From Gammaproteobacteria bacterium (GTDB lineage: Bacteria; Pseudomonadota; Gammaproteobacteria; Steroidobacterales; Steroidobacteraceae): 64,000 nucleotides of DNA. Made by a program: the position numbers and the translations under genes. Location: contig JAQGOG010000016.1 in assembly GCA_028293765.1 (NCBI GenBank), positions 1 to 64,000 on the forward strand, in the 5' to 3' direction. Below the pieces are notes generated by a model. The model worked only from the letters and a program-made list of their open reading frames with translations, was not told the DNA's origin and did not search any database. This document shows, piece by piece, positions 13,009 to 63,973 of this stretch (position 1 is its first letter; each line of letters starts with the position of its first letter).

Positions 13009-14526
13009 TCAGTCCTCGCGGGTGACTCGAAGGACTTCCTCGAGTGTCGACTCGCCGCGCAGGATCTTCGCCCGGCCGTCGTCACGGATCGACGGCGTCG
13101 TCTTACGCGCATGGCGTTCGAGCTCCTGCTCGCTGACTCCGTCATGGATCATCGTACGCATCGTGTCATCCACCACGATGAGCTCGTAGATACCGGAGCG
13201 TCCGCGATAGCCGCCGCCCGCGGAATCGCGACCGGGGCGGTAGAGCACCGGGGACGGCTCGTCGGGCTTCAGGTTCAGCAGGCGGCGTTCGTATTCGCCC
13301 GCCGTGAACGGCTGCTTGGACTCCGGGCTGAGCACGCGCACCAGGCGCTGTGCCACCACCCCGATGAGGCTCGAGGACAGCAGGAACGGCTCGATCCCCA
13401 TATCGCGCAAGCGCGTGATGGCGCCCGCGGCGGTGTTGGTGTGAAGGGTCGAGAGCACCAGGTGGCCGGTCAAGCTGGCCTGAACCGCGATCTGCGCGGT
13501 CTCGAGGTCGCGGATTTCGCCGATCATGACGACGTCCGGGTCCTGCCGCAGAATGGCGCGCAGGCCGCGCGCGAAGGTCATTTCGACCTTGGTGTTCACC
13601 TGCGTCTGCCCTATGCCGTCGATGTAATACTCGATCGGATCCTCGACGGTCATGATGTTGCGCGTGTTGTCGTTGAGACGCTCGAGACCGGCGTACAACG
13701 ACGTCGTCTTGCCGGAACCGGTCGGTCCCGTGACGAGCAGAATGCCGTGCGGCTTGTGGATGAGATCGTCGATGAGCGCCTCGGTCTTGGGATCCATGCC
13801 CAGCGCGCTCAAGTCCAGCTTGCCCGCCTGCTTGTCGAGGATACGCAGCACCACCCGTTCGCCGTGGCCCGAAGGTATCGTGGACACGCGGACGTCGACC
13901 GCGCGGCCGGCGATTCGCAGGCTGATGCGGCCGTCCTGAGGCAGCCGTTTCTCGGCGATGTCGAGTTTCGACATGACCTTGATGCGCGAGACGACGAGCG
14001 GCGCGACTGCGCGCTTGGATTGCAGAACCTCGCGCAACACGCCGTCGACGCGGAAGCGGACGACGAGCCGGTTCTCGAACGGCTCGACGTGAATGTCGGA
14101 CGCGTTTTCCTTTACCGCCTGCGTGAGCACGGCATTGATGAGGCGGATGATCGGCGCGTCGTCGTCGCTGTCGAGCAGGTCCGCCTGCTCGGGCAGATCC
14201 TGCGCGAGATGGGCCAGATCGGTGGTCTCGTCGAGCCCTTCGACGGCCTGCATCGTGTCCTGGCCACCCTCGTAGGCCTTGCGCAGCAGGAGGTCGAACT
14301 CCGCTTCCGAAACCCGCTCGAGCCGGATGGAGCGGCGCAGGTAGCGGCGGACTTCCGCGATCGCGAGCGGGGAAGCGTGATCGCGATACGCGCACTCCGC
14401 TACACCGTCGACAAATTGCTTCACTACGATGCCGTGACGCTTCGCGAATGCGAACGCCAGGCGGCGCTCCGGCGGCAGCGCAGTGACTGTCGCCGGCGCT
14501 TCGGTTGTTTCGGGTACCGCATTCAT
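13009..14526 (-). CDS. gspE: Type II secretion ATPase GspE, lacking the tetracysteine zinc motif
   Basis: 505 aa. Hexameric cytoplasmic ATPase that drives pseudopilus assembly. The N-domain (1-110) is followed by the core with Walker A GPTGSGKT (267-274), Asp box near 296, Walker [10 protein letters not shown] (332-340) and His box near 361. After [10 protein letters not shown] the zinc-binding CxxC...CxxC module of classical GspE is replaced by SPESK and [20 protein letters not shown]: all four Cys are gone, although the flanks align. Its ATG overlaps the gspD stop by four bases (ATGA). Confidence 0.95.
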
Positions 14527-18661: not shown

Positions 18662-20929
18662 GTGCTGTCCAACGAGCTTGAATACTGCCTGAACGATGCC
18701 TTTCACCAGGCACGCGAGGCACGTCACGAATATCTGACTGTCGAGCACCTGTTGCTCGCGATCCTCGATACACCGAAGGTGCGGGAAGTCCTGCGGGCCT
18801 GTGGCGCGGATCTCGGCAAGCTCAAGCAGGAGCTGAAGGAACACATCGATCAGTCGACGCCACGGCTGGAAGAAGGCGAGGAGCGCGAGGTGCAGCCGAC
18901 ACTGGGCTTCCAGCGGGTGCTGCAGAGAGCCGTTTTCCACGTGCAGTCGAGCGGCAAGAAAGAAGTCGGCGTCGCAAACGTGCTCGTCGCGATTTTCAGC
19001 GAAAAGCAGAGTCACGCCGTGTTCCTGCTCAACCGCCAACACGTGACGCGCCTGGATGTCGTGAACTACATCTCGCACGGTCTTTCGAAGATCGCCGAGG
19101 AGAAAACCGACAAGGAGGACACGCAGGCGGACCCCGAGCGCGATCCCGAGGGCGGCAGCGCGCTCGAGAAGTACACCTCGAACCTCAATCGCATGGCGCA
19201 GGACGGGCGCATCGATCCGCTGATCGGCCGCAAGCTCGAGGTCGAGCGCACGATCGAGATCCTGTGCCGGCGGCGCAAGAACAATCCTCTCTATGTCGGT
19301 GAGGCGGGCGTCGGCAAGACGGCCATCGCCGAAGGGCTGGCGCGGCTCATCGTCGAGGGCAAGGTGCCGGAGGTGCTCTCCGACTGCACGATCTACGCTC
19401 TCGACATGGGCGCGCTGATCGCCGGAACGAAATATCGCGGCGACTTCGAGAAGCGCCTGAAGGGTGTCATCACCGAGCTGAAGAAGCAGCCCGGGGCCAT
19501 CCTCTTCATCGACGAGATCCATACCGTCATCGGCGCGGGCGCGGCTTCGGGCGGCGTCATGGACGCCTCGAACCTCATCAAGCCGGTCCTCACCAACGGT
19601 GAGATCCGCTGCATCGGTTCGACCACGTACCAGGAATACCGCGGCATCTTCGAGAAAGACCACGCTCTCGCGCGGCGCTTCCAGAAGATCGACGTCGTGG
19701 AGCCTTCGGTCACCGAGACCATCGAGATCCTCATGGGTCTCAAGCCCCGCTTCGAGGAGCATCACGGCATCACTTACGCGAACGACGCCATCAAGGCTGC
19801 CGCGGAGCTTGCCGCTCGCCACATCAATGAGCGGCACATGCCGGACAAGGCGATCGACGTGGTCGATGAGGCGGGCGCTCGCCAGCGGCTGAAGCCCATC
19901 GGAGAACGTGAGCCTACCGTCGAAGTACGTCACATCGAGGACGTCGTGGCGCGCATGGCGCGAATTCCTCCGAAGAGCGTGTCGACTTCGGATCGGGAGG
20001 TGCTCAAGAACCTCGAACGCAATCTGAAGCTGGTGATCTTCGGGCAGGACAAGGCGATCGAGTCGCTCGCGGCCGCCATCAAGATGGCGCGCTCCGGCTT
20101 GGGCGATCAGCGCAAGCCGGTCGGCAGCTTCCTGTTTGCAGGTCCCACCGGGGTGGGTAAGACGGAGGTCACGCGGCAGCTCGCTACCACCATGGGTGTG
20201 GAGTTCCTGCGCTTCGACATGTCGGAGTACATGGAGCGGCATACGGTATCGCGGCTGATCGGCGCGCCTCCCGGCTATGTCGGCTTCGACCAGGGCGGCC
20301 TGTTGACGGAAGCGATCACGAAGCATCCGCACTGCGTGCTGCTGCTCGATGAGGTCGAGAAGGCGCACCCGGACGTGTTCAACTTGCTGCTGCAGGTGAT
20401 GGACCACGGCACGCTCACCGACAACAACGGGCGGAAGGCGGATTTCCGACACGTCATCATCGTCATGACCACCAACGCTGGAGCGCAGGAAATGTCGCGG
20501 CCGACCATCGGCTTCACGCACTCCGACAACGCGAGCGATGGCATGGAGGCGATCCGGCGGATCTTCACCCCGGAATTTCGCAACCGGCTGGATGCGGTGA
20601 TCCAGTTCTCGGGCCTCGACCTGGTGACCATCGAGCGCGTGGTGGACAAGCTCATCGTGGAAGTCGAGATGCAGCTCGAGCAGAAGGGCGTCACGATCAC
20701 TCTCGACGATGCGGCGCGGCGCTGGATCGCAGAGAAGGGCTACGACCCGAAGATGGGTGCGCGCCCGATGGCAAGGACGATCCAGGAGCACATCAAGCGG
20801 CCGCTGGCCGAAGAACTGCTCTTCGGACGGCTGGTGGGTGGCGGTTACGTGCGGGTATCGGTCGCGAAGGACGGGACGAAGCTCGAACTGGACTGCACTC
20901 CAACGCAGTTGCCGGAAGTCACGGCTTGA
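18662..20929 (+). CDS. clpA: ClpA, ATPase subunit of ClpAP protease
   Basis: 755 aa. AAA+ unfoldase working with ClpP. I take the GTG at 18662 because the protein then starts MLSNELEYCLNDAFHQAREARHEYLTVEHLL, the conserved ClpA N-domain; AGAGG lies about ten bases before. The first AAA domain has Walker A GEAGVGKT (213-220) and the second GPTGVGKTEV (about 500). The arrangement RRIFTPEFRNRLD and the C-terminal D2 small domain are standard. Confidence 0.96.
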   Translation: MLSNELEYCLNDAFHQAREARHEYLTVEHLLLAILDTPKVREVLRACGADLGKLKQELKEHIDQSTPRLEEGEEREVQPTLGFQRVLQRAVFHVQSSGKKEVGVANVLVAIFSEKQSHAVFLLNRQHVTRLDVVNYISHGLSKIAEEKTDKEDTQADPERDPEGGSALEKYTSNLNRMAQDGRIDPLIGRKLEVERTIEILCRRRKNNPLYVGEAGVGKTAIAEGLARLIVEGKVPEVLSDCTIYALDMGALIAGTKYRGDFEKRLKGVITELKKQPGAILFIDEIHTVIGAGAASGGVMDASNLIKPVLTNGEIRCIGSTTYQEYRGIFEKDHALARRFQKIDVVEPSVTETIEILMGLKPRFEEHHGITYANDAIKAAAELAARHINERHMPDKAIDVVDEAGARQRLKPIGEREPTVEVRHIEDVVARMARIPPKSVSTSDREVLKNLERNLKLVIFGQDKAIESLAAAIKMARSGLGDQRKPVGSFLFAGPTGVGKTEVTRQLATTMGVEFLRFDMSEYMERHTVSRLIGAPPGYVGFDQGGLLTEAITKHPHCVLLLDEVEKAHPDVFNLLLQVMDHGTLTDNNGRKADFRHVIIVMTTNAGAQEMSRPTIGFTHSDNASDGMEAIRRIFTPEFRNRLDAVIQFSGLDLVTIERVVDKLIVEVEMQLEQKGVTITLDDAARRWIAEKGYDPKMGARPMARTIQEHIKRPLAEELLFGRLVGGGYVRVSVAKDGTKLELDCTPTQLPEVTA

Positions 20930-51409: not shown

Positions 51410-52063
51410 TCACAGCCGCAGATAGTCGTTCGCAATGGCGTAGGCGGCTACGGCCGTCGCGCTTCGCAGGCCCAGTTTGCGCATCAGGTTGCTGCGGTGC
51501 TTCTCGATCGTTTTGTGGCTCAGGGATAGTTGCTGCGCGATCTCGCGCGTGCGAAATCCCAGAGCGATCCGCTTCATGACCTCCCGCTCACGATCGCTCA
51601 AACCGTCGGCGTTGCGCTGTTTCGCGAGCGTGCGCTTTCTGACGAAGCCGCTGACGACCCGATCGAGGATCGAGGGGCTTACGTAGCGTCCGCCCTCCAT
51701 CAGGGTGCGGATTGCGGCGAAGAGCTCCTGGCGGGTATCTGTCTTGAGCAGATAGCCATCCACCCCCGCGCGCAACGCGGCCTCGATGACCGCGTCCTCC
51801 CTATGAAAGGACAACACGAGAATGCGTGCGCGCGGCCAACGACTCCTGACTGCCGCGATCGTCGCGGGGCCGCTTTGGTCGGACAACGAGAACTCCACGA
51901 TTACAACATCCGGGTCGGTGGGCAGCGAGAGTTTGGCTACGGCGACGCCACCCACGATGATGCCGAGGACTTCGACATCCTCCGCGAGATTCAGGAGCGC
52001 ACACAGGCCGTCGCGCAGGAGTCCTTCCTCGTCTATGACCAGGATCTGGATCTTGCAGTGCAT
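51410..52063 (-). CDS. NarL/LuxR-type response regulator with Glu in place of the phospho-acceptor Asp
   Basis: 217 aa from the ATG at 52063. Receiver domain: acidic pair at Asp11-Glu12 (LVIDEEG), Thr/Ser switch in LVLSFH, Lys in GYLLKTD. At the phosphorylation site the sequence is VVIVEFSLSDQSG, so Glu57 replaces Asp. The C-terminal LuxR domain is intact: LSDREREVMKRIALGFRTREIAQQL then SHKTIEKHRSNLMRKLGL. Glu often mimics the phosphorylated state, so it may be always active or controlled by level. It is next to a histidine kinase on the same strand. Confidence 0.9.
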   Translation of the reverse strand: MHCKIQILVIDEEGLLRDGLCALLNLAEDVEVLGIIVGGVAVAKLSLPTDPDVVIVEFSLSDQSGPATIAAVRSRWPRARILVLSFHREDAVIEAALRAGVDGYLLKTDTRQELFAAIRTLMEGGRYVSPSILDRVVSGFVRKRTLAKQRNADGLSDREREVMKRIALGFRTREIAQQLSLSHKTIEKHRSNLMRKLGLRSATAVAAYAIANDYLRL

Positions 52064-52136
52064 GAACCGCCTATGGCGACAGGGTGCGAGCGCACCTGTT
52101 TTCAACGAGCATAGGCGTAACCCCACGCGATTTCGC

Positions 52137-52150
52137 TAGGGGAAATCCCC
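52137..52150. promoter_or_regulatory. Candidate regulator-binding palindrome upstream of the Glu-type regulator
   Basis: TAGGGGAAATCCCC, a GGGG-AAAT-CCCC palindrome 74 bases upstream of the regulator start. A related GGGTACTTTCCCTA lies upstream of the second regulon side (55372-55385). They may be sites for one of the two NarL-type regulators. Confidence 0.35.
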
Positions 52151-52272
52151 CAGGCGACCCGCGGGTATCTCACCGCACGCGGATATCTCTTTCTCAGCAT
52201 AGGCCGGCGCAGCCTTTCGGCCTAAGCTCGCCACTCGCGGCCGTCGCACGATCCGCGCTTCGGGGTGAACTC

Positions 52273-52386
52273 GTGGTCTGGTTGAAAATACTCATCGTCT
52301 ATGGTCTGTTCGTCTTGGCTTGGTTGGGGCTCCTTTGGCGCGCAGGGCGCCACTGTCGCAACAGGGAACACCATCCTCCAAACTGA
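52273..52386 (+). CDS. Possible small single-TM protein
   Basis: 37 aa from a GTG at 52273 with GGGGTG upstream. It reads VVWLKILIVYGLFVLAWLGLL, a hydrophobic helix, then a basic tail WRAGRHCRNREHHPPN. Nothing identifies it. It lies between two minus-strand regulatory genes, on the opposite strand. It may be real, since membrane microproteins are common beside two-component genes, but the evidence is the reading frame alone. Confidence 0.35.
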   Translation: MVWLKILIVYGLFVLAWLGLLWRAGRHCRNREHHPPN

Positions 52387-52411
52387 GCATCGCGCGTCGC
52401 GGAGGTAGACG

Positions 52412-53716
52412 TCAGGGATCGTGTTCGTTCGACGTGAGGAGCCAGTCGAGCCGCGCGTGCGTGCCGCAGCCTTGATCGCCCGACAGCGTCAGTCTGCCGC
52501 CGGTCATCTGAGTGCGCTCACGCAGGTTGCGGATGCCATGTCCGAGTCCGAAGGAGCCGGACGAGTCGACGGAAGGTAGCCCCACTCCGTCATCGGAAAC
52601 AATCAAGGCCACCAGATTCGCATCCCTGACCAGCGCGACCGTTACCTGTTCCGCCTTGGCGTGCTTGGCGACGTTGTTCAGCAGCTCCTGCGCGCAGCGG
52701 AATATGGTGGTCACCAGGCGTTGCGGAATGTCCGCGTCGGACGCCGAGATGCGGCTGCATACCGCGATTTGGGTATAGGTTTCAGCGAACTCGCGACACA
52801 ACCATTCGAGCGCGGAAGCGACACCCAGGTCGTCCAGCACGGACGGCCTCAGGTCCATCGCGATGGAGCGGATCTCCTTGAGGGTGTCCCGGACCCGCTC
52901 GACCGTCCGGGTGAGCAGGGGTTGTGTATCGGCGTGCCGTCCCTGGCGGTGCAGCTCAACTGCCCGCTCGAGGGAATACTTAATGGCGCTCAATGACTGC
53001 CCGACCGAATCGTGCAGCTCCTGCGCGATGCGCCGCCGTTCCCGCTCCTGAGCCTGGATCAGCTGTTGCGACAGCAGCTCGAGCTCGTTACGCGATAGTC
53101 GTAGCGCATCTTCGGCCGATTCGCGCCGTGCAATTTCATTGTGCAGGTCGCGGATCGCGTTTTCGAGTTCCTGTGTACGCGCGTGAACGCGTGCCTCGAG
53201 ACTTTCATTCAGGGCCTCGAGCGCCGCGCGGGCTACACGCAGCGGTGTCACGTCCGTTACAACCATGACCGCGCGTGCGTGGCCCGCGGCGCGGCGCCCA
53301 CCCGCGTCTCCCGTTATGGGCCGCAGAGCTATGGATACCACCCGGTCGAGACGCGAGTCGAGCGTCTCAAATTCCACCGATGCGCCGCTCTGCATGCGGA
53401 TCCACGCATCTCCCAGGAGTGAGCCGAGAATGCAGTCTTGCTCGCAACCTCCCGGATGCAGAAGGTCATGCATGTCGCGACCGGTCACGTCGTTGACGCG
53501 ACCCAGGTGCCAGGCCTCGATCACCCGATTCACGCGCACGGCCTGCCGGCGCTCATCGAGGAGACAGACTATGTGCGGCAGGGTGTCAGCGGTGCTTTCC
53601 CAGTCCTGCTTGGCCCGGGCGATCGCCTGTTGGATGTCGTCCGGCAAGGTAGGGCCTGGGCTTGCCGCCGGCGGTGACGCGCTCTTTTCGCAACCCACGG
53701 GCATCGGGGCGTTCAT
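52412..53716 (-). CDS. Soluble PAS-domain histidine kinase (HisKA_3, NarX type)
   Basis: 434 aa, no TM helix. A PAS domain (about 40-160) contains HPGGCEQDCILG, a Cys pair that could sense redox or bind metal. A coiled coil (160-215) leads to HisKA_3 with phospho-acceptor His235 in RRRIAQELHDSVGQSLSAIKYSLE, and a HATPase domain with N-box CAQELLNNVAKHAK and G-box DDGVGLP / GLGHGIRNLRER. Its target could be either neighbouring NarL-type regulator; only the one at 54640 has a phosphorylatable Asp. Confidence 0.9.
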   Translation of the reverse strand: MNAPMPVGCEKSASPPAASPGPTLPDDIQQAIARAKQDWESTADTLPHIVCLLDERRQAVRVNRVIEAWHLGRVNDVTGRDMHDLLHPGGCEQDCILGSLLGDAWIRMQSGASVEFETLDSRLDRVVSIALRPITGDAGGRRAAGHARAVMVVTDVTPLRVARAALEALNESLEARVHARTQELENAIRDLHNEIARRESAEDALRLSRNELELLSQQLIQAQERERRRIAQELHDSVGQSLSAIKYSLERAVELHRQGRHADTQPLLTRTVERVRDTLKEIRSIAMDLRPSVLDDLGVASALEWLCREFAETYTQIAVCSRISASDADIPQRLVTTIFRCAQELLNNVAKHAKAEQVTVALVRDANLVALIVSDDGVGLPSVDSSGSFGLGHGIRNLRERTQMTGGRLTLSGDQGCGTHARLDWLLTSNEHDP

Positions 53717-53719
53717 GCG

Positions 53720-54334
53720 TCAGCGCGCTGACGCCAGTTCCAGAAGATGACGATAGATTCGCAGAACGCGTGGCACGTACTCGAGTGTTTCCTTCAGCGG
53801 AGGAATTGTCCCGCCGTGCTGGTCGACGGCTGACGGTCCGGCATTATAGGCCGCCAGGACGAGCTCCAGGTCGTTCTGATAACGATCTGTCAGGTCGCGC
53901 AGGTATTGGGCTCCCGCGCGGATGTTCTGTTCCGGATCGAAGGCGTTGCGCACCCCGTACTGTCGCGCCGTCGCGGGCATCAACTGCATCAGGCCGCGTG
54001 CGCCGCGCTTTGAAACGGCCTGCGGGTCGCAGCCGGATTCGGCCACGATCACGGCGCGCACCAGGGCAGGCTCGAGTCGGCTGGCGCGGGCGGCGACTTC
54101 GATCAGGGGCGCATAAGCCTGCGATCGCTGGAGCAACTGACGGACGCCGAGTGCTGGAGCCGCTTCATATTGCGGTGCAGCAAGAAGGGACTGGTAGCGC
54201 GCGTCGACCGGTACGTTGGAATAATGTGCGACGCCGTGCTCATCCGTGAAGACAAAGAGGCCCGCAGCCGCACTTCGAGTTGCAGGCAGTGCCGCGCAGG
54301 CGCATAACATCAACACTGGGGTGAGACGGTGCAT
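53720..54334 (-). CDS. Lytic transglycosylase with DUF4124-like N-terminus
   Basis: 204 aa from the ATG at 54334. Signal peptide about 1-24, short GLFVFTDEHGVAHYSNVP segment, then the SLT domain with catalytic Glu99 in VIVAESGCDPQAVS, GLMQLMPATARQYG and the C-terminal ELVLAAYNAGPSAVDQHGG. It cleaves peptidoglycan, probably opening the wall for the secretion system encoded next door. It ends three bases from the kinase start. Confidence 0.88.
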   Translation of the reverse strand: MHRLTPVLMLCACAALPATRSAAAGLFVFTDEHGVAHYSNVPVDARYQSLLAAPQYEAAPALGVRQLLQRSQAYAPLIEVAARASRLEPALVRAVIVAESGCDPQAVSKRGARGLMQLMPATARQYGVRNAFDPEQNIRAGAQYLRDLTDRYQNDLELVLAAYNAGPSAVDQHGGTIPPLKETLEYVPRVLRIYRHLLELASAR

Positions 54335-54639
54335 TGGGCCAGTATGCGCCGTGATTCGAGTCACGCAGGTAGGTGAACACCGTAGCTCCGGGGTTGGATG
54401 GAAAGGGCTCACCTGTGGGTGGGTTTCAGGGGGCGGCGGTGCGATAGTAAGAGCCCCCGGGGCTTACATTTTTCTTATAAATTAAGTAAAACATGGCTAA
54501 CGAGTTAACTGGGTGGGCGTACTCTCGCTGATAGCGAGCTTCCCAGAATAAAGAGCCACGCCGGGGCAATTGCTCGAACCGCCCGGCCGCGGCAGTCCAG
54601 GACGGATGCTCACAAAGAAGTTCGCGGAGTGACTGTTCA
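54335..54639. other. AT-rich spacer before the second regulator
   Basis: Contains a palindrome GTAAGAGCCCC/GGGGCTTAC (54447-54466) followed by ATTTTTC, and an AT-rich block TTATAAATTAAGTAAAAC that is unusual in this GC-rich sequence. It is likely the promoter region of the plus-strand operon and perhaps of the transglycosylase on the other strand. No gene seen. Confidence 0.5.
54447..54473. promoter_or_regulatory. Palindrome with T-run upstream of the secretion operon
   Basis: GTAAG-A-GCCCC-C-GGGGC-TTAC then ATTTTTC. It could be a terminator for a short plus-strand RNA or an operator. No plus-strand gene precedes it, so I favour an operator or a small-RNA terminator. Confidence 0.35.
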
Positions 54640-55359
54640 GTGTCGGCCGAACTACACCCTGAAATCGCACCAAGCGCGGCAGATCCACGCAGTCGCCTGG
54701 TCCTGGTCGAGGACCATGCCATCCTGCGTGAGGGCTTGCGCGCGCTGCTCGAACTGGAGGGCGATCTGCATGTCGCGGGCGAATGCGCCAATGCCAGCGA
54801 CGCCCTGACGGTCGTCGAGCTCCTCAGGCCCGCGCTCGTCATTACGGACATAGCGCTCCCCGGGCGCTCGGGAATCGAGCTCATCGGCGGTCTGCGGCAA
54901 CTGGGCCTCAGTCTGAAGATCCTGGTCCTGACCGCACACAACTCGGAAGAGTACATCCGTGCGGCCTTGAATGCGGGCGCCGACGGTTATGTATTGAAAG
55001 ACGCGAGCCGCGCCGATCTGCTGCAGGCGATTCGGGCCGTGCTGTCCGGACAGACTTATCTGTGCTCCTCGGTGACCGCCAAGGTCGTCTCGGGATATCT
55101 GCGCCCCAAGACCGTGGATGTGGGGGTTGCCGCGGCCGAGCATGTTACGGGGCGGGAGCGCGAGGTGCTGACCCGAGTCGCTCTTGGTCAGTCCAACAAG
55201 CTGATCGCCCGTGCGCTGGTCGTAAGCGTAAAGACCGTCGAGAAGCATCGAGCCAACCTGATGCGCAAGCTGACTCTGCATAATACGGCTGCCGTCACCC
55301 GCTTCGCCATTCGCAATGGCATGGTAACTGCCACCGACATGGAGTCGCCGACGGAGTAA
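54640..55359 (+). CDS. NarL/LuxR-type response regulator
   Basis: 239 aa from a GTG at 54640 (GGAG ten bases upstream). The receiver is complete: Glu24-Asp25 in LVLVEDHAILREGL, phospho-acceptor Asp70 in LVITDIALPGRSGIEL, Thr in VLTAHNSE and Lys in GYVLKDAS. The LuxR HTH reads VTGREREVLTRVALGQSNKLIARAL then SVKTVEKHRANLMRKLTLHNT. It directly precedes gspG, so it probably controls the second secretion operon, with the kinase at 52412 as partner. Confidence 0.92.
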   Translation: MSAELHPEIAPSAADPRSRLVLVEDHAILREGLRALLELEGDLHVAGECANASDALTVVELLRPALVITDIALPGRSGIELIGGLRQLGLSLKILVLTAHNSEEYIRAALNAGADGYVLKDASRADLLQAIRAVLSGQTYLCSSVTAKVVSGYLRPKTVDVGVAAAEHVTGREREVLTRVALGQSNKLIARALVVSVKTVEKHRANLMRKLTLHNTAAVTRFAIRNGMVTATDMESPTE

Positions 55360-55385: not shown

Positions 55386-55514
55386 CCGGGAGCTACCACG
55401 GCCTACCTAGTTGAGTCTACTCCACGGTAGCAACCTTCCCACTGGCGGCTGATGGCGCCGCGACCGGAACATGGGGTCGAAGTGGATGGCAATGCAACAC
55501 CGGGCGGGGTCGAA

Positions 55515-55955
55515 ATGCGCGGGCGCACTCACGAGGCGGCAAAGATCGCCAGGAGCGGCGGCTTCACCTTGCTGGAGCTCCTCGTCGTCATGGTGATCAT
55601 CGGACTGCTCGCGGGCTTCGTGGCGCCGCGCTACTTTTCGCAGGTCGGTAAATCCCGCGTCAAGGCTGCCAGTGCGCAGATCGATGCCCTCGACAAGGCG
55701 CTGGAGCAATTCCGCATCGACGCCGGCCGTCTGCCGACGACTGAAGAGGGGCTGGCAGCGCTGAACGCCGCACCGCCCGGCATGACTAACTGGGAGGGTC
55801 CGTACTTGAAGAAGAGCGTTCCCAGGGACCCGTGGGGACACCCGTATGTGTATGTGCAGCCCGGAACACACCAGAACGACTTCGATCTCATCTCGTATGG
55901 TCGGGACGGCCAGCCGGGGGGAACCGGAGAAGATGCGGATCTCGCTAACTGGTGA
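55515..55955 (+). CDS. gspG: Major pseudopilin GspG of the second secretion system
   Basis: 146 aa from the ATG at 55515 (GGGG five bases upstream; an ATG at 55452 would add 21 residues). A prepilin leader ends RSGG, cleaved before FTLLELLVVMVIIGLLAGFVAPRYF with Glu at +5. The C-terminal half has the GspG signature LPTTEEGLAALNAAPPG, WEGPYLKKSVPRDPWGHPYVY and SYGRDGQPGGTGEDADL, including the calcium-site region. First structural gene of the operon. Confidence 0.92.
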   Translation: MRGRTHEAAKIARSGGFTLLELLVVMVIIGLLAGFVAPRYFSQVGKSRVKAASAQIDALDKALEQFRIDAGRLPTTEEGLAALNAAPPGMTNWEGPYLKKSVPRDPWGHPYVYVQPGTHQNDFDLISYGRDGQPGGTGEDADLANW

Positions 55956-55961
55956 CGCGTA

Positions 55962-57146
55962 ATGGAATTTCGCATCAAAGCACTCGATGGCGCCCACAGT
56001 GTGGTCGGCTGTGTGCTGGATGCGGTGGATGAGGCCGACGCGCGCCGCCAGCTCGCCCTCAAAGACCTGAGAGTCATCTCGCTTGCACCGATCCGGCGCC
56101 TGCGGCTGATGGCGCGCGCTCCGCAATTACACCTGGCCGTGTTCAGCCAACAGCTGGTGTCGCTGCTCGAGGCGGGCCTGTCTCTGGTGGAGGCACTCGA
56201 GGCTCTGTCCGAGCGGGAGTCGAGCTCGGGCACGCAGAGAACCCTGGAAAGAGTTCTGGGGCGACTCTACGAAGGCCAGACATTCGGCGCCGCGCTCGCC
56301 GAGCACCCGGCGAGCTTCCCACCGCTCTATGTCGCCTCGGTGCGCGCGAGCGAGAAGACCGGCGCGCTAGGGGAGGCATTGACCCGATACATCGCCTACG
56401 AACGGCAGGCCGATTCGTTGCGCAAGACTCTCGTCAACGCCTGCATCTATCCAGCGGTGCTGCTTGGCGTGGGGCTGCTCGTCACCTTGTTCCTGATGGG
56501 CTATGTGGTGCCGCGATTCAGCGCCATCTATGAGGATGTCGGCAGCGACTTGCCGGCGGCGTCCCGTGTGCTGCTCCAATGGGGCCAGTTGATCGATGCG
56601 CACGCGGGCCTGATGGGGTTGCTCGCGGCCGGCACGCTGGGCGCGAGCGTCTACGGCCTGAGTCGCCCCGCGGCCCGGGCGAAGATAGGAGAGTGGCTTA
56701 CGCGAATTCCCGCGGTGGGACACCAACTTCACATCTATCAGCTGGCTCGACTGTATCGCATGACGGGCATGTTGCTACGCGGAGGCATGCCCGCGGTGGC
56801 TGCGCTGCAGATGTGCGGAGGATTACTGCGTGCCGGCTCGCAATCCGCGTTTTCCGCCGCCACTCAGGCGGTACGTGAAGGACAGTCGCTCGCGCAGGCG
56901 ATGGAGCGCAATGGACTGACTACCGCGGTTGCAGCTCGGATGCTGCGAGTCGGAGAGCGCAGCGGGAATATGGGCGAGATGATGGAGAGAATCGCCTCCT
57001 TCTGCGACGAGGAGCTCGCGCGGTGGGTCGCTGTCGTCACCCGGTTGATCGAGCCGGTGCTCATGACGGTCATCGGCCTCGTCATTGGCGTGATCGTGGT
57101 GCTGATGTATTTTCCGATCTTCCAGCTGGCCGGGAGCATCCGATGA
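55962..57146 (+). CDS. gspF: Secretion/pilus platform protein GspF, second copy
   Basis: 394 aa. Starts MEFRIKALDGAHSVVGCVLDA; two T2SF domains (LAVFSQQLVSLLEAGLSLVEALEAL near 55 and RLYRMTGMLLRGGMPAVAAL near 260) with TM segments and a C-terminal VLMTVIGLVIGVIVVLMYFPIFQLAG. It begins six bases after gspG and ends over the gspE ATG (ATGA). It differs in sequence from the copy at 11624. Confidence 0.92.
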   Translation: MEFRIKALDGAHSVVGCVLDAVDEADARRQLALKDLRVISLAPIRRLRLMARAPQLHLAVFSQQLVSLLEAGLSLVEALEALSERESSSGTQRTLERVLGRLYEGQTFGAALAEHPASFPPLYVASVRASEKTGALGEALTRYIAYERQADSLRKTLVNACIYPAVLLGVGLLVTLFLMGYVVPRFSAIYEDVGSDLPAASRVLLQWGQLIDAHAGLMGLLAAGTLGASVYGLSRPAARAKIGEWLTRIPAVGHQLHIYQLARLYRMTGMLLRGGMPAVAALQMCGGLLRAGSQSAFSAATQAVREGQSLAQAMERNGLTTAVAARMLRVGERSGNMGEMMERIASFCDEELARWVAVVTRLIEPVLMTVIGLVIGVIVVLMYFPIFQLAGSIR

Positions 57147-58897
57147 ATGCGGCGCTCGACGAGTTGAGACCGGTCGCCGCGGCGGACTGCGACGCTGAAA
57201 TCCAACCGCCGTTGGCCGCGATGTCGGCGCCAATCGTAGTGCTCGAGGAAGCGACCATCGCCCGGGCGATGACGGAAGCGGAAGTTTCGGGACAGCCCGC
57301 TCGCGACATCCTGTCACGCCTTTCCGGGCTCGCCGGCGCGCCTTACGCACGAGCGCTTGCTGCAGCGTTCGACTATCGCTTCGTCGCCGGGGACGAGCTC
57401 GCGCACCTGGAGCCCGATTTCGGCCTACTCGCGCCGGCGGAAGCCACTCGGCGGCACTGCCTGATTTTCCACGAGGGTCCGCGCCTCCTTGCCGTATTTG
57501 CGGACCCGTTCGACACCACTCTGCGAGCGTGGCTGGAGATTCGCGTCGCGGGCCCGATAGAGTGGGCACTGGCCTCGCGCGAGGAACTCGCGAATCTCAC
57601 ATCGCGGCGCGCCGAAGCGCTGCGTGCGATCGATGCCGTGCTGCCCGCCGCCCAGCGAGGCGCGCAAAGCGAGCAGGGGATCGACACCCTCTCGTATGTT
57701 TCGATCAGCGAGGACGCAAGCCCGGTCATCCGCCTGGTGCACTCCACCGTCTTCGACGCCTTGCGAGCCGGCGCCAGCGACATTCACCTCGAAACCACGG
57801 CCGGCGGATTGTTAGTCCGCTACCGCGTCGACGGGGTGCTCGCGAATATTGCCAACGCCTCCGGCACCGAGCTGTCCGAACAGGTCATCTCGCGCCTCAA
57901 GGTGATGTCGGAGCTCGACATTGCGGAACGGCGCGTACCGCAGGATGGCCGGTTCAAGATCGTCTTCGAAGGCCGTCCGATCGACTTTCGCGTCTCGATC
58001 ATTCCGAGCATCTTCGGCGAGGACGCGGTCCTGCGTGTGCTCGACAAGAAGGCCCTGACGCAGCAGATGAACGGCCTGCGGCTCGATGTGCTCGGGTTCG
58101 ATGCCGAGGTGGTCGCCGAGCTGCGCAGGCTGAGCTCGTTGCCTTACGGCATGCTGCTCGTCACGGGGCCGACCGGCAGCGGCAAGACGACGACGCTGTA
58201 TGGGGCCATTTCCGAGACCCAGACCGGCCGCGACAAGATCGTGACCATCGAGGATCCGGTCGAATACCAGCTCGCCGGGGTCCTGCAGATTCCGGTGAAC
58301 GAGAAGAAAGGACTGACCTTCGCGCGCGGCCTGCGATCGATTCTGCGGCACGACCCGGACAAGATCATGGTCGGCGAGATCCGCGATCCGGAGACCGCGC
58401 AGATTGCCATTCAGTCGGCCCTCACGGGACACCTGGTGTTCACCACCGTGCACGCCAACAACGTGTTCGACGTAGTCAGTCGTTTCGTGCACATGGGTGT
58501 GGATACCTACAGTTTCGTCTCAGCCCTGTCCGGTGTGCTGGCCCAGCGCCTCGTGCGGGTCAACTGCGCGCAATGCTGCCAGGCGAGCATGCCCTCCCGG
58601 CAGCTCATCGAGGCATCAGGGGTTTCGGTCGTGGCGACGGCGTCCTTCCGATTTCGCAAAGGCCAGGGCTGCAAGCACTGTCGCGGTACGGGCTATCGGG
58701 GACGCAAGGCCGTCGGGGAGCTGCTCGTCCTCAATGACGAGATGCGCGAAGCGATCATCAACCGAGCGCCGGTGCGGCAATTGAAGGAGCTGGCGGCGCA
58801 GGCAGGCGTGCGCCTGTTGCGGGCGTCCGCGCTCGATCTCGTGCGCCGCGGGCAAACCACGCTCGAGGAGGTCAATCGTGTCACCATTATGGCGTGA
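57143..58897 (+). CDS. gspE: Secretion/pilus assembly ATPase GspE, second copy, with intact zinc motif
   Basis: 584 aa from the ATG at 57143. A long N-terminal domain (about 30-165; MshEN/T2SSE-N-like), then the ATPase core: SDIHLETT (212-219), Walker A GPTGSGKT (342-349), Walker B KIMVGEIRD (about 407-415), His box VFTTVHANN. The zinc module is present: Cys475-x-x-Cys478 and Cys510-x-x-Cys513 (CKHCRGTGYRG), unlike the GspE at 13009. Overlaps gspF by four bases. Confidence 0.93.
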   Translation: MNAALDELRPVAAADCDAEIQPPLAAMSAPIVVLEEATIARAMTEAEVSGQPARDILSRLSGLAGAPYARALAAAFDYRFVAGDELAHLEPDFGLLAPAEATRRHCLIFHEGPRLLAVFADPFDTTLRAWLEIRVAGPIEWALASREELANLTSRRAEALRAIDAVLPAAQRGAQSEQGIDTLSYVSISEDASPVIRLVHSTVFDALRAGASDIHLETTAGGLLVRYRVDGVLANIANASGTELSEQVISRLKVMSELDIAERRVPQDGRFKIVFEGRPIDFRVSIIPSIFGEDAVLRVLDKKALTQQMNGLRLDVLGFDAEVVAELRRLSSLPYGMLLVTGPTGSGKTTTLYGAISETQTGRDKIVTIEDPVEYQLAGVLQIPVNEKKGLTFARGLRSILRHDPDKIMVGEIRDPETAQIAIQSALTGHLVFTTVHANNVFDVVSRFVHMGVDTYSFVSALSGVLAQRLVRVNCAQCCQASMPSRQLIEASGVSVVATASFRFRKGQGCKHCRGTGYRGRKAVGELLVLNDEMREAIINRAPVRQLKELAAQAGVRLLRASALDLVRRGQTTLEEVNRVTIMA

Positions 58898-59693
58898 CGA
58901 GATAGGCGTTCACCTGTCGCCGCACAGAGTGTGTTTGGTCCGCGTCGCACGCGGCATCAGGCCCGCGCTCGCCGCCCAACATGAGCAGGAGGTTGAATCC
59001 GAGACTGCCGGGCATTGGGCGGGTCCGCTGGCCGCGCTGGACGGCCTGTTGGCCGAATCGCAATGGCAGGGCGCCGCGCTTCGCGTAGTCCTCGCGGATT
59101 GCTGGGCTCGTTACGCCATCGTGCCCTGGGCAGCCGATCTGAGCTCGTCGCAGGAGCGGCTGGGCCACGCTCGCCAACTCCTCGCCAGTACGTATGGTGA
59201 CGCGGTCAGCGGCTGGGACGTGCGTCTGTCGGACGCTCCACCTCAGTCCTCGCGTATCGCCTGCACCTTGCCTCTTGAGTTGCTCGAGGGCGTGCGTGGA
59301 ATTTGCTCGAAACACGGCACAAAATTGGCAACCTTGCAGCCGCAGCTCGTGGCTGCGTACGAGAACTGGCGCCGTCATCTACCCGCGTCGGGCGGCTGGT
59401 TTGTTACGGTCGGCGCGGGCACCCTCGCAGCGGCTCGGGTAGCACGCCACTCGTGGGACCGCGTGCATAACGTGCGCATTGGCTCGGACTGGGCTCGGGA
59501 GCTGAAGCGTCTACAGACGTTCGGACGCCTGGCAAGCACCAGTCCCGATGAGGGCCAGGTATACGTCGACGCACCGCAGGCCTGGCGCGAAGTCGCCGGC
59601 ACCGCTGGACGCGACCTGCACTGGCTGGAGGACGATGCGGGGTCGCAGTCGACTCTACAGCGGCTCGGGCGCGTCCAGAGGCTCGCCGCATGA
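58878..59693 (+). CDS. PilM/MshI/GspL-like cytoplasmic actin-fold component
   Basis: 271 aa from a GTG at 58878, overlapping gspE by 20 bases. The N-terminal WRDEIGVHLSPHRVCLVRVARG, middle LRVVLADCWARYAIVPWAADL and later GWFVTVGAGTLAAARVARH fit the actin-like fold of PilM or the cytoplasmic part of GspL. There is no TM helix, so it is more PilM-like; the TM part is in the next gene. It probably connects the ATPase to the inner-membrane platform. Confidence 0.7.
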   Translation: MSPLWRDEIGVHLSPHRVCLVRVARGIRPALAAQHEQEVESETAGHWAGPLAALDGLLAESQWQGAALRVVLADCWARYAIVPWAADLSSSQERLGHARQLLASTYGDAVSGWDVRLSDAPPQSSRIACTLPLELLEGVRGICSKHGTKLATLQPQLVAAYENWRRHLPASGGWFVTVGAGTLAAARVARHSWDRVHNVRIGSDWARELKRLQTFGRLASTSPDEGQVYVDAPQAWREVAGTAGRDLHWLEDDAGSQSTLQRLGRVQRLAA

Positions 59694-60220
59694 CCGCCCC
59701 TGCGGTCATGCTCGATTTCGCCGGTCCCCGTGTGCGAACGACGCTCACGGGCGTCGTGTTGTTGATTTTCGGCCTGGCCGCGGTGACGGCCGCGTGTCTC
59801 GAATATCGAGCGGCGACGACCAAACGAGCGGGTCTGGAGCTCAGGCTCGCCGCGGTCCTGCGCCATTCGCCCCACGAATCCGTCAACACGCGAGCCAGCG
59901 CGCGTCTGGGCGAAGAAGCTGCCGGGATAGCCCGCCAGCTCGGGACGCCGTGGACGGCTATGCTGGCGGACCTCGAGGCCGCGAGCCGGGATACCGAGGG
60001 ACGGATCGCGGTGCTGTCCGTCGAGCCCGACTACGACAAGCATCTGGTCCGCATCAATGGGGAATCCCGGGATTTGTCGGTGGCGCTGGCGTATCTGCAG
60101 CGACTGCAGGAAAGCCGCTCCCTACGGTATCCGATGCTGGACAGCCACGACGTGGTTGCCGAAGACAAGGAGCACCCGGTGCGCTTCGCGATGACTGCGC
60201 AGTGGCGGGAATTGCCATGA
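59690..60220 (+). CDS. PilN-like bitopic membrane protein
   Basis: 176 aa, ATGA overlap with the gene before (59690-59693). One TM helix (about 17-37, TTLTGVVLLIFGLAAVTAACL), coiled coil (38-80), then a small ferredoxin-like domain ending IAVLSVEPDYDKHLVRINGESRDLSVALAYLQRLQ. This is the PilN layout; sequence similarity is weak. Confidence 0.65.
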   Translation: MTAPAVMLDFAGPRVRTTLTGVVLLIFGLAAVTAACLEYRAATTKRAGLELRLAAVLRHSPHESVNTRASARLGEEAAGIARQLGTPWTAMLADLEAASRDTEGRIAVLSVEPDYDKHLVRINGESRDLSVALAYLQRLQESRSLRYPMLDSHDVVAEDKEHPVRFAMTAQWRELP

Positions 60221-60924
60221 CTGCCCCGACGCCGATCACTGCGAAGGTGACACCGATTTCATCCGTGTCACCGCACTCGACCGCCATCGCCCCTGTGTCC
60301 TCCGCCCGCGCGGCGGCACGGTCCTCGACACCACCCCCCGTCGCGAAGACGACTCATAGCCGCAGCGTATCGTCGCGCCTTGGGGACGCAGTTGTCCGAG
60401 CAGTTCCCCTGGGCTATTACCACCTGGTTAGGGTGGGCCCCGCTGGAATCGCCGGCGTTGCCGCGACGCTCGCCGCAGTGGCGATCGGCGCGATCGCGCT
60501 CATCGCCGGCCGAAATGCTACCGACTCGCTGGCCGCACAGATCGCAAGCGCCCAGCATCGCCCGACCGCCGCCTCGAGCACGGCGGAGGGGATCGGTAAA
60601 GTAGTAGCGGCCCTTCCCACGCGCGACCAGATTCCGGCGGTGATGGGTGTGATGTTGCAGCAGGCGCAGAAGTCAGGAGTGGCGCTCGACACGGGCCACT
60701 ACTCGTACAGCCCACCCAAGGCAGGCGGCGTGGGCCGCTACGAGCTCGAATTTCCCGTGAAGGCGGAATACCCCAGCGTCCGCGACTTCATCAATCGGAC
60801 GCTGACGGCGGTGCCGTCCGCAGGTCTGGACAAGCTGCGTATCGAACGCAAGGTTGTCGGGGATACCGTAGTGAGCGCGGACGTCCGTTTCGTGGTCTTC
60901 GTGCGCAGCGGGTCGGAACCATGA
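60217..60924 (+). CDS. PilO/GspM-like membrane protein
   Basis: 235 aa from the ATG at 60217 (ATGA overlap). A low-complexity Ser/Thr/Pro N-terminus (1-55), one TM helix (about 76-98, VAATLAAVAIGAIALIAG), then a ferredoxin-like domain with VMGVMLQQAQKSGVALDTG and YELEFPVKAEYPSVRDFINRTL. The PilO/GspM arrangement is expected after PilN. Confidence 0.65.
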   Translation: MTAPTPITAKVTPISSVSPHSTAIAPVSSARAAARSSTPPPVAKTTHSRSVSSRLGDAVVRAVPLGYYHLVRVGPAGIAGVAATLAAVAIGAIALIAGRNATDSLAAQIASAQHRPTAASSTAEGIGKVVAALPTRDQIPAVMGVMLQQAQKSGVALDTGHYSYSPPKAGGVGRYELEFPVKAEYPSVRDFINRTLTAVPSAGLDKLRIERKVVGDTVVSADVRFVVFVRSGSEP

Positions 60925-61457
60925 AGATGACAATACGCAGCAAAGTTCTGGTCGGCATTGCCGGCTCGATCGCCGCGTACGTCCTTTTTGCGCCGACAGA
61001 TTCCCAGACCGTCGACCCCGCCAAGACCGGTGAAAGGGCGCCTGCCGTGCGTTCGCCGCGTCGTGCGGAAACACACGGCGAGCGCGCTCTGCACGCGCTT
61101 TACCTGCTCACGCATCGTGTGTCCGACGGCGCCTCGGCAAACGCGCTGTTTGCTGCGCATTCCTGGTACTCGCCGCCACCTCCGCCCCCGCCAGTGCCCT
61201 CGATGTCCGCAGCACAGGTCGTCGCGCTCCAGGTACCCACGGCGCCGCCGCTGCCATTTGCCTTCATGGGCAGCTATACCCCGGATGGCTCGACACCCGT
61301 ATTTTTTCTCACGCAGGGAGATCGTGTCTACAACGTTCGGATCGGCGACACGCTCGATACTACCTACAGCGTCGATTCGTTCGCAAACGGGCAGCTCGTG
61401 CTGACCTACAAGCCTTTAAAAATACAACAACAACTCTCTGTCGGAGGCGCACCATGA
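60921..61457 (+). CDS. PilP/GspC-like periplasmic linker protein
   Basis: 178 aa, ATGA overlap with the gene before. N-terminal TM segment (about 5-24, IRSKVLVGIAGSIAAYVLFA), a run of eight prolines (residues 85-91 region) and a C-terminal beta domain PFAFMGSYTPDGSTPVFFLTQGDRVYNVRIGDTLDTTYSVDSF, then LTYKPLKIQQQL. This matches the PilP / GspC-HR fold that contacts the secretin N0 domain. Confidence 0.65.
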   Translation: MKMTIRSKVLVGIAGSIAAYVLFAPTDSQTVDPAKTGERAPAVRSPRRAETHGERALHALYLLTHRVSDGASANALFAAHSWYSPPPPPPPVPSMSAAQVVALQVPTAPPLPFAFMGSYTPDGSTPVFFLTQGDRVYNVRIGDTLDTTYSVDSFANGQLVLTYKPLKIQQQLSVGGAP

Positions 61458-63973
61458 CGCTATTCTCGCGCCGGGTCGCCGGGTCTGTGGCGATTGTCAT
61501 TCTAGTCGCAGGCTGCGCGGCGGATCGGCTTCACCGTGCAGGGCTCGCCGCGATCGAGCGGGGCGACTACGAGGTCGGCGTCACCAAGCTGACTGAGGCG
61601 TCCAGCAAGGATCCCCACAACATGGAGTATCGGCTGGATCTGCAAGCCCGGCGCGAGGCGGCAGTGCAACATCTGGTCGCGGATGCCGACAATGCGCGGG
61701 CGGCCGGGCAACTCGACAGAGCCGACCAGATTTATCGGCGGGTGCTCGCCATAGATTCGAATAACGACAGAGCCACCGCGGGTCTTGCGGGTCTGGGGAG
61801 TGACGCGCGTCACGCCGCGACGGTGGCGGAGGCGCGCAAGGATTTAGAGCGCAGGGACTACGATTCCGCGGAGGCAAAAATGCGGGGGGTCCTCGCCGAG
61901 GATCCCAGCTACACACTCGCGCAGGATCTCGCTTCCGCAGTCACTCTGGCGCGGGGTCCCACGACAGTAGCGCCGCGTCTGAAGACGCGCGACAACCGCA
62001 AAGTCACCCTGCAGTTCCGGGATGCGCCCACCAAGATGGTCTTCGAAGTGCTGTCGCGCGAGACCGGCATCAACTTCATCCTCGACAAGGACATCAAGAG
62101 CGACGGCAAGACCACGATTTTCGTGCAGGACGTGCCGGTGGAACAGGCGATCGACCTGGTGCTGGCGCAGAACTCGCTGACTCGCCAGATCATGGCCTCC
62201 AACATGGTGCTGATCTATCCGAATAATCCCGCCAAGCAGAAGGAGTACCAGGAAGAGATCGTTCGGACCTTTTACGTCACGAACGCAGCTCCCAAGGATG
62301 TGGAGAGCATGTTGAAGACCGTGCTTGGCGCCAAGACGCTGTTCATCGACGAGCGGGCCAATGTCGTCGTGATGCGCGATACGCCCGATGCGGTGCGAAT
62401 GGCGGAAAAATTGGTCGCTTCCCTGGATATCGCGGAGCCGGAAGTCATGCTCGAGGTGGAGATCCTCGAGATCTCCCGCAGCCGGCTGACGGACCTGGGA
62501 ATCGCTTATCCGACGTCGGCAACGCTCACGCCGTCGTCGCTCGCAACGGGCGTTGGGGCCTCCTCCGGCCTGCGTCTGTCGGATCTCAGTCATCAGAATT
62601 CAAAGACCATCGGCATCTCGCAGCTCAGCGTGACGTTGAACGCGATGAAGCAGGTCGGATTGGCCAACACGCTGGCCAGCCCACGCATCAGGGCGCGCAA
62701 CAAGGAGAAGGCGAAAATCCTGATCGGGCAACGGGAGCCTGTCATTACGAACAGCGTGACGCCCACCGCCGCCGGCACTGCGGTGGTCACGGGCTCCGTG
62801 CAATACCTGGATGTGGGCCTCACGCTGGAAGTGCAGCCCACGATCTACCTGGACAGCGACGTCGCCATCAAGATCAACCTGGAGGTCAGCTCGATCCTGA
62901 AGCAGATCACGACCGCGTCCGGCACGATCGCGTACGAGATCGGCACACGCAACGCCAACACTCTGCTGCGCCTGAAGGATGGCGAAACACAGATCCTCGC
63001 CGGGCTCATCCAGGACTCGGATACTCGCAGCGCCAACAAAATCCCAGGGCTCGGCGATATTCCCATACTGGGGCGGCTGTTCGGCACAAACCACTCGGAC
63101 CGGGAGAAAAGCGAGGTCGTCCTGTCGATCACGCCACGCATCATCCGCATGCAATCGCGCCCGGCGAGCGACACGACGGAATTCTGGTACGGGACGGAGA
63201 GCCGGACGCACAGTGCCCCTCTGGCTTCAGGAGCGAGTGCCAGCGGTGGCGGCGGTTCCGCCGGACCGAGCGCGCCTGCCGTCGCCGCGCCGGGCTCCGT
63301 CTCCGGAAGTGCCGGATCGGCGGTGCAGATGCCGTCCCAGCCTCCCATGGCGCCGGCGCCTGCGTCGCCGCCACCGCAGACAGGCGCCGTAATCAAATCG
63401 GCGCCGGCCCCACAGCACGTGCCAATCGCGGAGCCCCCCGCGCCCGTTGTGGCGAGCGCTGTGCCTTCCCCGCCTCCGCCAGCCGAAGCGAGTGATACAC
63501 CGCTTGCCGGGAGCGCGGCTGCCGCACCCGCGCCGCCCAGCGTACCGGCGCCCGTAAGCGCACCTGCGTCGCGACCCGCGCTCACCCTTGAGGGACCGTC
63601 CAATGCGCGCGTAGGCGAGGAGTTCGACGTCGCCGTGCACCTCTCTACCGAGCAGGCGATTACGCGATTACGTTCGCAGGTTCGCTACGATTCGACGGTA
63701 CTGCAACTCGTGAGTGCGACGACGGGCGATGTGGTTCCGACCGCAGCGGGGAGCCCGACGGTCAATACACACCCGGGCGGCGCACAGCTAGAGATCATCA
63801 CGACGCCCGACGATCCTGTGCATGGCGATGGCGGTGTCATGACTTTGCATTTCAAGGTACTGAAGGCAAGGCCTACGACGAATGTCGCCGCCATGCTCTC
63901 CGTTCTCGGTGCGGCGGGCGCGGCACTCGGCAGCAGCGCCGCGCAACCGCTCGCGATCGCGATTCAGCCATGA
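61454..63973 (+). CDS. gspD: Lipoprotein secretin GspD with TPR N-terminus and C-terminal cohesin-like domain
   Basis: 839 aa, ATGA overlap with the gene before. A lipobox (LVAG-Cys21) anchors it to the outer membrane without a pilotin. TPR repeats (about 25-165) precede N-domains (KVTLQFRDAPTKMVFEVLSRETGINFILD...). The secretin core runs about 335-560 (LANTLASPRIRARNKEKAKILIG; VQYLDVGLTLEVQPTIYLD; ETQILAGLIQDSD; VVLSITPRII). A 125-residue Pro/Ala linker leads to a cohesin-like beta domain (708-839: PALTLEGPSNARVGEEFDVAV ... GGVMTLHFKVL). This domain may bind a partner or substrate outside the pore. Confidence 0.9.
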   Translation: MTLFSRRVAGSVAIVILVAGCAADRLHRAGLAAIERGDYEVGVTKLTEASSKDPHNMEYRLDLQARREAAVQHLVADADNARAAGQLDRADQIYRRVLAIDSNNDRATAGLAGLGSDARHAATVAEARKDLERRDYDSAEAKMRGVLAEDPSYTLAQDLASAVTLARGPTTVAPRLKTRDNRKVTLQFRDAPTKMVFEVLSRETGINFILDKDIKSDGKTTIFVQDVPVEQAIDLVLAQNSLTRQIMASNMVLIYPNNPAKQKEYQEEIVRTFYVTNAAPKDVESMLKTVLGAKTLFIDERANVVVMRDTPDAVRMAEKLVASLDIAEPEVMLEVEILEISRSRLTDLGIAYPTSATLTPSSLATGVGASSGLRLSDLSHQNSKTIGISQLSVTLNAMKQVGLANTLASPRIRARNKEKAKILIGQREPVITNSVTPTAAGTAVVTGSVQYLDVGLTLEVQPTIYLDSDVAIKINLEVSSILKQITTASGTIAYEIGTRNANTLLRLKDGETQILAGLIQDSDTRSANKIPGLGDIPILGRLFGTNHSDREKSEVVLSITPRIIRMQSRPASDTTEFWYGTESRTHSAPLASGASASGGGGSAGPSAPAVAAPGSVSGSAGSAVQMPSQPPMAPAPASPPPQTGAVIKSAPAPQHVPIAEPPAPVVASAVPSPPPPAEASDTPLAGSAAAAPAPPSVPAPVSAPASRPALTLEGPSNARVGEEFDVAVHLSTEQAITRLRSQVRYDSTVLQLVSATTGDVVPTAAGSPTVNTHPGGAQLEIITTPDDPVHGDGGVMTLHFKVLKARPTTNVAAMLSVLGAAGAALGSSAAQPLAIAIQP

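Follow-up and report, generated by a model that had tools for sequence, protein, structure and literature searches.

A lipoprotein secretin with a C-terminal cohesin module, encoded in a predicted type II secretion operon next to genes for a putative split copper oxidase

Several described systems bear on the locus presented here. The Oxp/Pul type II system of Geobacter is reported to be needed for export of OmpB (Mehta et al. 2006, via PMC3543383 and PMC5566968), and the lipoprotein secretin HxcQ is described as being targeted without a pilotin (PMC3542185). Sideroxydans lithotrophicus ES-1 has three tandem multicopper genes (PMC5566968), and its cluster Slit_1812–1818 is reported to code for SCO1, a cytochrome and three cupredoxin proteins, of which two have multicopper-oxidase motifs and the third, of larger size, lacks them; late magnetite cultures showed higher expression than those with Fe(II)-citrate, and similar clusters are described in Paraburkholderia, Ralstonia, Anaeromyxobacter and the Steroidobacteraceae (PMC12016527). 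We analyzed a 64,000-nucleotide stretch of a gammaproteobacterium of the Steroidobacteraceae (the window; positions 1–64,000 of contig JAQGOG010000016.1, assembly GCA_028293765.1; positions past its edge are given on the contig, C17), in which a secretin ends in a cohesin module. The reading that we consider probable, with some reserve, is that this lipid-anchored secretin would pilot itself and serve a type II operon exporting giant or multi-subunit folded cargo, with the cohesin acting as a periplasmic docking arm.

The secretin, a GspD/PilQ-like liposecretin, is encoded by an open reading frame (ORF) at 61454–63973 on the plus strand (839 amino acids plus stop), and its features, all on that strand, were delimited from Pfam domains and an alignment of 31 sequences, comprising the window and 30 loci with a complete secretin. 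The signal sequence ends in a lipobox read from the sequence (LVAG-C), and its cysteine, residue 21 (codon at 61514–61516), is unchanged across the alignment; this N-terminal cysteine identifies the protein as a liposecretin of predicted lipidation. A TPR region follows (residues about 24–165; 61523–61948), in which TPR_19 (82–113) scores over and TPR_2 (24–56) below the cut-off, then the STN (206–256) and Secretin_N (270–329) domains (62069–62440), the Secretin domain (397–565; 62642–63148; Pfam E 4.9e-42), a linker recognized by its composition (584–705; 63203–63568) and the cohesin module (706–839, Pfam core 710–811; 63569–63970). The Secretin domain and N-domains, with matches by sequence to PilQ and GspD structures, place the protein in the Secretin superfamily (PF00263). 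With the classical GspD model (TIGR02517) it scores 178.3 bits, short of the equivalog cut-off of 351.35, and with the PilQ model 183, short of 284.35. The linker runs to 122 residues, of which Pro and Ala make up 51% and Pro, Ala, Ser and Gly together 75%.

The cohesin assignment draws on two kinds of search. Pfam Cohesin (PF00963) matches residues 710–811 at E 9.4e-11 (42.5 bits, cut-off 24.1) over profile positions 3–111 of 139, and the last 138 residues alone reach 46.5 bits. When a profile of 28 tails (the window and 27 relatives) was searched against solved structures, it matched the cohesins 2vn5 (E 1.9e-6), 1g1k (2e-6, about 100 positions) and 2xdh (6e-5), with a top row, 3l8q (1.1e-9), that is a sum of partial matches. 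The first nine rows, to E 0.0064, all carry the names scaffoldin, scaffolding, cohesin or anchoring protein; past that point are two named endoglucanase, further scaffoldins, the O-GlcNAcase NagJ and a few others. Searched as a single sequence, the last 138 residues gave weak matches to solved structures (best E 0.021). Since the Pfam match exceeds its cut-off and the tail profile matches solved cohesins, the tail is, judged by its sequence, a genuine homologue of the cohesin family. The possibility that it is a standard secretin C-domain was rejected on the same two grounds. A preliminary description of this DNA had proposed an outer-membrane lipoprotein secretin with TPRs at its front and, after a Pro/Ala linker of about 125 residues, a cohesin-like C-terminal module; the Pfam matches to TPR_19, Secretin and Cohesin, the predicted lipid anchor at Cys21 and the measured linker all agree with that picture.

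Genome contigs scanned with the secretin alignment gave 39 loci in 36 genomes, all titled as metagenome-assembled genomes; 29 of the 39 locus titles read Gammaproteobacteria or Proteobacteria bacterium and the remainder carry other or doubtful labels. Truncated secretins (L033, L045, L052, L054, L056, L058 and L060), a fragment (L065) and a distant Omnitrophota sequence (L063) were left out of the alignment. Cohesin was searched for in 32 of the 36 genomes and found over the cut-off in 31, once in each except G172, which has two and also two such secretins; the sole negative genome, G177, has a secretin cut by a contig end. All 30 of the cohesin matches checked, out of 32, lie inside the secretin ORF, and the remaining two (G168 and G175) fall in contig-cut fragments. 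Mean majority identity over the alignment is 54% for the cohesin and 45% for the linker. A passive beta-sandwich spacer with no specific partner would be consistent with the failure of the dockerin searches to reveal a partner, and with an identity above 93% at only 9 of the 134 cohesin positions (31 rows), but the cohesin block is kept in 31 of 31 aligned secretins despite linkers that vary from 50 to 130 residues, and we regard such a spacer as unlikely.

The domain is rare. A sample of 349 genomes from across the phylum contains PF00963 in three, the source genome counted, and no secretin was seen beside it in the other two. Among 60 relatives (source genome included) six have a cohesin, namely the source genome, G010, G016 and G028 of its genus, and G039 and G054 of its order; in G010 and G016 it sits within this secretin, and the stretches read around the cohesins of G028, G039 and G054 hold no secretin. 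The secretin itself, sought at E 1e-30 in another sample, of 117 genomes from the order, is present in five, including the source genome and G038, whose match is distant. A second, more distant secretin of G060 (L021) had no cohesin match in a whole-protein Pfam scan, a scan that can overlook the domain, as it missed the cohesin of L023 that the genome search detected.

The secretin is a member of a predicted eleven-gene type II secretion operon, in which GspE, GspF, GspG and more pseudopilins adjoin it and whose gene content is conserved among relatives. The genes on the plus strand of the window are the major pseudopilin GspG (55452–55955, true start probably further in; TIGR01710 169.6 bits, over the cut-off, and PF08334), GspF (55962–57146; TIGR02120 E 1.8e-76, below the curated cut-off) and the GspE ATPase (57143–58897; PF00437 E 1.7e-123, TIGR02533 below cut-off), followed by four small genes conserved in relatives that stand in the positions of GspL/PilM (58878–59693), PilN/GspM (59690–60220), PilO (60217–60924) and GspC/PilP (60921–61457). 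Pfam lends no support to the names PilM, PilN, PilO and PilP for these four beyond a weak PilN match in the second (E 0.054, below the cut-off). After the secretin come three further pseudopilin-like genes, the first of which begins at 63970 on the plus strand and exits the window (C17:63970–64449), with the second and third at C17:64424–64864 and about C17:64863–65360; N_methyl matches are over the cut-off in the first two and fall short of it in the third. On its flanks the operon has NarL/LuxR-type response regulators and a histidine kinase (window 51410–53716, minus strand, and 54640–55359, plus strand), and kinase- and regulator-like ORFs common to relatives adjoin their operons, the likeness to the window genes being one of type only. 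At L045, L049 and L064, such secretins adjoin oxidase genes and few or no other secretion genes lie in the stretch.

The surroundings of the secretin are more interesting than its tail. Just past the window edge, after the pseudopilins, lie an alpha cupredoxin gene (625 aa; C17:65580–67457), a beta cupredoxin gene (535 aa; C17:67468–69075) and a gene in which gamma is joined to a giant body (3250 residues; C17:69091–78843). The same three genes are found in constant order in 34 stretches, representing 32 distinct loci (L045/L070 and L032/L081 overlap), with the exceptions that beta (L051) or gamma (L077) is split into two ORFs and that the third ORF of L107 matches beta best. The body is fused behind gamma in 21 stretches, fused in front of alpha in four (L066–L069), a separate gene in front of alpha in four more (L108–L111), and elsewhere hidden by contig or stretch ends; this shuffling is the pattern seen for subunits of one complex. 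A screen of 274 genomes of the class found beta at E 1e-30 in seven, the source genome included.

Conserved residues in these proteins suggest a single oxidase divided between gene products. ORFs best matching alpha, beta and gamma numbered 44, 44 and 36, and the alpha set was reduced to 41 by dropping short or repeated sequences. Alpha retains H290, H293 and H295 in 40 of 41 sequences (one has a gap) and H335, C336, H337, H343, M346 and M348 in all 41; beta retains H328, H331, H333, H501 and H503 in 34 of 34. Gamma has no conserved HxH among 32 sequences, stray instances occurring in five. The roles that we take the single residues to play as copper ligands are partly general knowledge and partly read from alignments with two-domain laccases. 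On this basis alpha conserves the type 1 ligands together with four histidines of the trinuclear site, beta conserves the remaining four, and gamma has none, such that the complete type 1 and trinuclear ligand set by which a multicopper oxidase is recognized in one polypeptide is here split. Alpha, with its type 1 cysteine, would thus supply the domain-1 set and beta the domain-2 set, and because the ligands are divided a complete trinuclear site would need both proteins. We infer that the oxidase is heteromeric, that a copper site lies between its subunits and that it is exported in folded form.

Other genes lie around the oxidase. The source genome has a second alpha-beta-gamma cluster on contig C82 (L100 9116–15000 and L101 2–5596), near which are SCO1 (L101 11058–11756) and a 570-aa CxxCH protein (L101 8716–10428). 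SCO1 adjoins the oxidase genes at L108, L111 and L101, accompanied at L108 and L101 by a CxxCH protein, that of L108 containing a sub-threshold periplasmic-binding match. At L108 the gamma gene is followed by a subtilase with a sub-threshold MopE-type copper-binding motif (14418–16130). At L002 a small LTXXQ-like protein (sub-threshold; 18875–19384) follows the giant gene, and related ORFs occur in L036 and L038.

Physical linkage ties the two systems together. At E 1e-20, over 37 of the 39 loci, 25 of the 36 relative genomes have alpha, and so do 22 of the 31 genomes with a cohesin match. In 19 of those 22 the two share a contig and are no more than 31 kb apart, and in 13 they are within 5 kb, compared to a chance expectation of about 0.5 genome by a rough estimate; in the other three they are on different contigs. 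In Paraburkholderia caribensis MBA4 the oxidase and the cohesin secretin operon are some 68 kb apart. The preliminary description had also guessed at an exported enzyme, and the oxidase genes just past the window edge speak for this; that the oxidase is the enzyme in question we infer. The operon would export very large or multi-subunit folded proteins, with the adjoining alpha-beta-gamma copper oxidase as the most likely cargo in the source genome. Once across the inner membrane, alpha, beta, gamma and the body would fold in the periplasm, acquire copper there and assemble, and the assembled oxidase would leave through this secretin, itself probably self-piloted through the lipid anchor. Carried on long flexible arms, one for each subunit of the ring, the cohesin modules would most likely dock a partner near the gate, be it the cell wall, the inner-membrane platform or the cargo, rather than serve as surface receptors for dockerins. 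Offered more tentatively, the proteins could be the pieces of a ceruloplasmin-like enzyme with six cupredoxin domains on three polypeptides and one trinuclear site at the alpha–beta interface; the exported object would then be a pre-assembled extracellular metal oxidase of alpha, beta, gamma and the giant body, and the cohesin arms would dock this or similar cargo on the periplasmic side.

Several observations weigh against the docking arm and its proposed cargo. Nine of the 31 cohesin genomes have no alpha at E 1e-20, so the oxidase cannot be the sole cargo, and in Janthinobacterium lividum and Eleftheria terrae the cohesin secretin adjoins other giant proteins. No secretion gene accompanies the C82 oxidase cluster over the 29 kb read. 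In Cupriavidus metallidurans CH34 alpha, beta, gamma and the body accompany a full set of operon genes, but the secretin there, of 734 residues, finishes in a Pro-rich stretch that gives no cohesin match (by a Pfam scan, a readable tail and no match past window residue 704), its stop at L084 17181 being closely followed by the next gene at 17185; given a full operon and oxidase there without a cohesin, the arm is dispensable in that strain. A tree with one outgroup hints that the C. metallidurans secretin lost its cohesin. The simple proposal that the cohesin is the oxidase's receptor was rejected on account of the nine genomes with a cohesin and no alpha and of the CH34 oxidase without a cohesin. 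The system is also patchy even inside the genus, given a secretin in five of 117 genomes of the order and this cohesin secretin in only the source genome, G010 and G016 among the 60 relatives, and the cohesin exceeds the linker in identity only modestly. Finally, the periplasmic placement is by analogy to secretins with an S-domain, and a linker of 50–130 residues could thread elsewhere.

That analogy nonetheless shapes our view of the side on which the module lies. Pilotins bind the S-domain, which is located after the secretin domain. In solved GspDs only the barrel rim enters the membrane and the remainder, including the C-terminal S-domain, is periplasmic (PMC6532946), so a cohesin in that position should be periplasmic as well, and we consider this its most likely location. 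The preliminary description had instead suggested that the module could keep secreted enzymes at the cell surface or bind a partner outside the cell. In such a display the linker would carry the cohesin outside, where it would keep the exported oxidase or giant attached to the cell, and features that suit this role are the long, variable linker and the Ig-like and HYDIN-like domains over the cut-off in the adjoining giant, along with a beta-helix match below it. The distribution of dockerins speaks differently. The source genome has one cohesin and not a single Pfam Dockerin_1 match, leaving it without the dockerin-bearing partners of a cellulosome-type pairing, and 34 of the 36 relative genomes have no dockerin over the cut-off. 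Of the two that do, G166 carries a cohesin secretin; the other is the Omnitrophota genome G184, where the secretin match spans residues 183–565 only, at 27% identity, and where 69 dockerin matches demonstrate that the search works. Two further relative genomes have dockerin matches below the cut-off. Thus a dockerin is unlikely to be the general partner, though a diverged one could escape Pfam, and with the periplasmic S-domain of solved GspDs, the C. metallidurans oxidase present without a cohesin and cohesins that occur without alpha in nine of 31 genomes, also beside other giants, surface display is not supported and seems to us improbable.

A role in assembly is harder to separate from the docking arm. 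Here the cohesin would replace the S-domain and either staple neighboring subunits together or bind an assembly factor or peptidoglycan during ring insertion. It occupies the S-domain position, it tracks the machine more faithfully than it tracks the oxidase, and a lytic transglycosylase gene (SLT, DUF4124; window 53720–54412, minus strand) adjoins the operon. ORFs of similar size and start, common to L031, L040, L041, L043 and L046, precede GspG in those loci. Conversely, piloting should already be provided by the N-terminal lipid anchor, and C. metallidurans has a secretin without the module. We see an assembly role as possible yet doubtful; it overlaps with the periplasmic docking arm, since both place the module in the periplasm, and the odds given to the readings do not sum to one. 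Within the favored reading, a partner in the machine or envelope is as likely as the cargo, since the arm goes with the machine more closely than with the oxidase.

Comparison with known systems separates what is familiar here from what may be new. Open-licence full-text literature yielded no article combining a cohesin domain, secretin and type II secretion, nor one combining cohesin-like, dockerin and secretin; for heteromeric or split multicopper oxidases it listed a single article, which concerns fungal oligomeric laccase-like oxidases. Two proteins on plasmid records, from J. lividum (WP_070257939.1) and E. terrae (WP_301260250.1), are likewise secretins whose C-terminal cohesin exceeds the Pfam cut-off; their annotation reads 'cohesin domain-containing protein'. 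Their operons are of the same kind as that of the window (pseudopilins, GspF, GspE), whereas their neighbors are an FG-GAP repeat giant and a hypothetical protein of more than 1250 aa, with no oxidase in the stretch read. HxcQ, likened to our secretin by its description in PMC3542185, is also a lipoprotein secretin, and that description mentions no cohesin. The locus therefore suggests that a cohesin can be employed without dockerins, as part of a secretion gate.

With respect to the cargo, Geobacter OmpB is also reported as a multicopper cargo of a type II system, but it is one protein. The gene content of Slit_1812–1818 equals that of L108, and from gene content alone the present alpha, beta and gamma are apparently of the Slit_1816–1818 kind. 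The oxidase family thus appears to be already in print, while the description of the cluster in PMC12016527 mentions neither a link to a secretion operon nor a shared copper site, and its main text never uses the word 'secretion'. Our analysis would supply a candidate export route for what look like copper proteins of this kind, which may have a role in growth on solid iron minerals. It also predicts that a single enzyme is built from two of them, and either point can be tested in cultivable strains. That putative enzyme can be compared with the two-domain laccases (2zwn, 3g5w): alpha matches domain 1 with its ligands, and the second half of beta aligns weakly with the domain 2 motifs of 2zwn. 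The remaining domains have no conserved HxH and, unlike in those laccases, the two halves of the ligand set reside here in different gene products.

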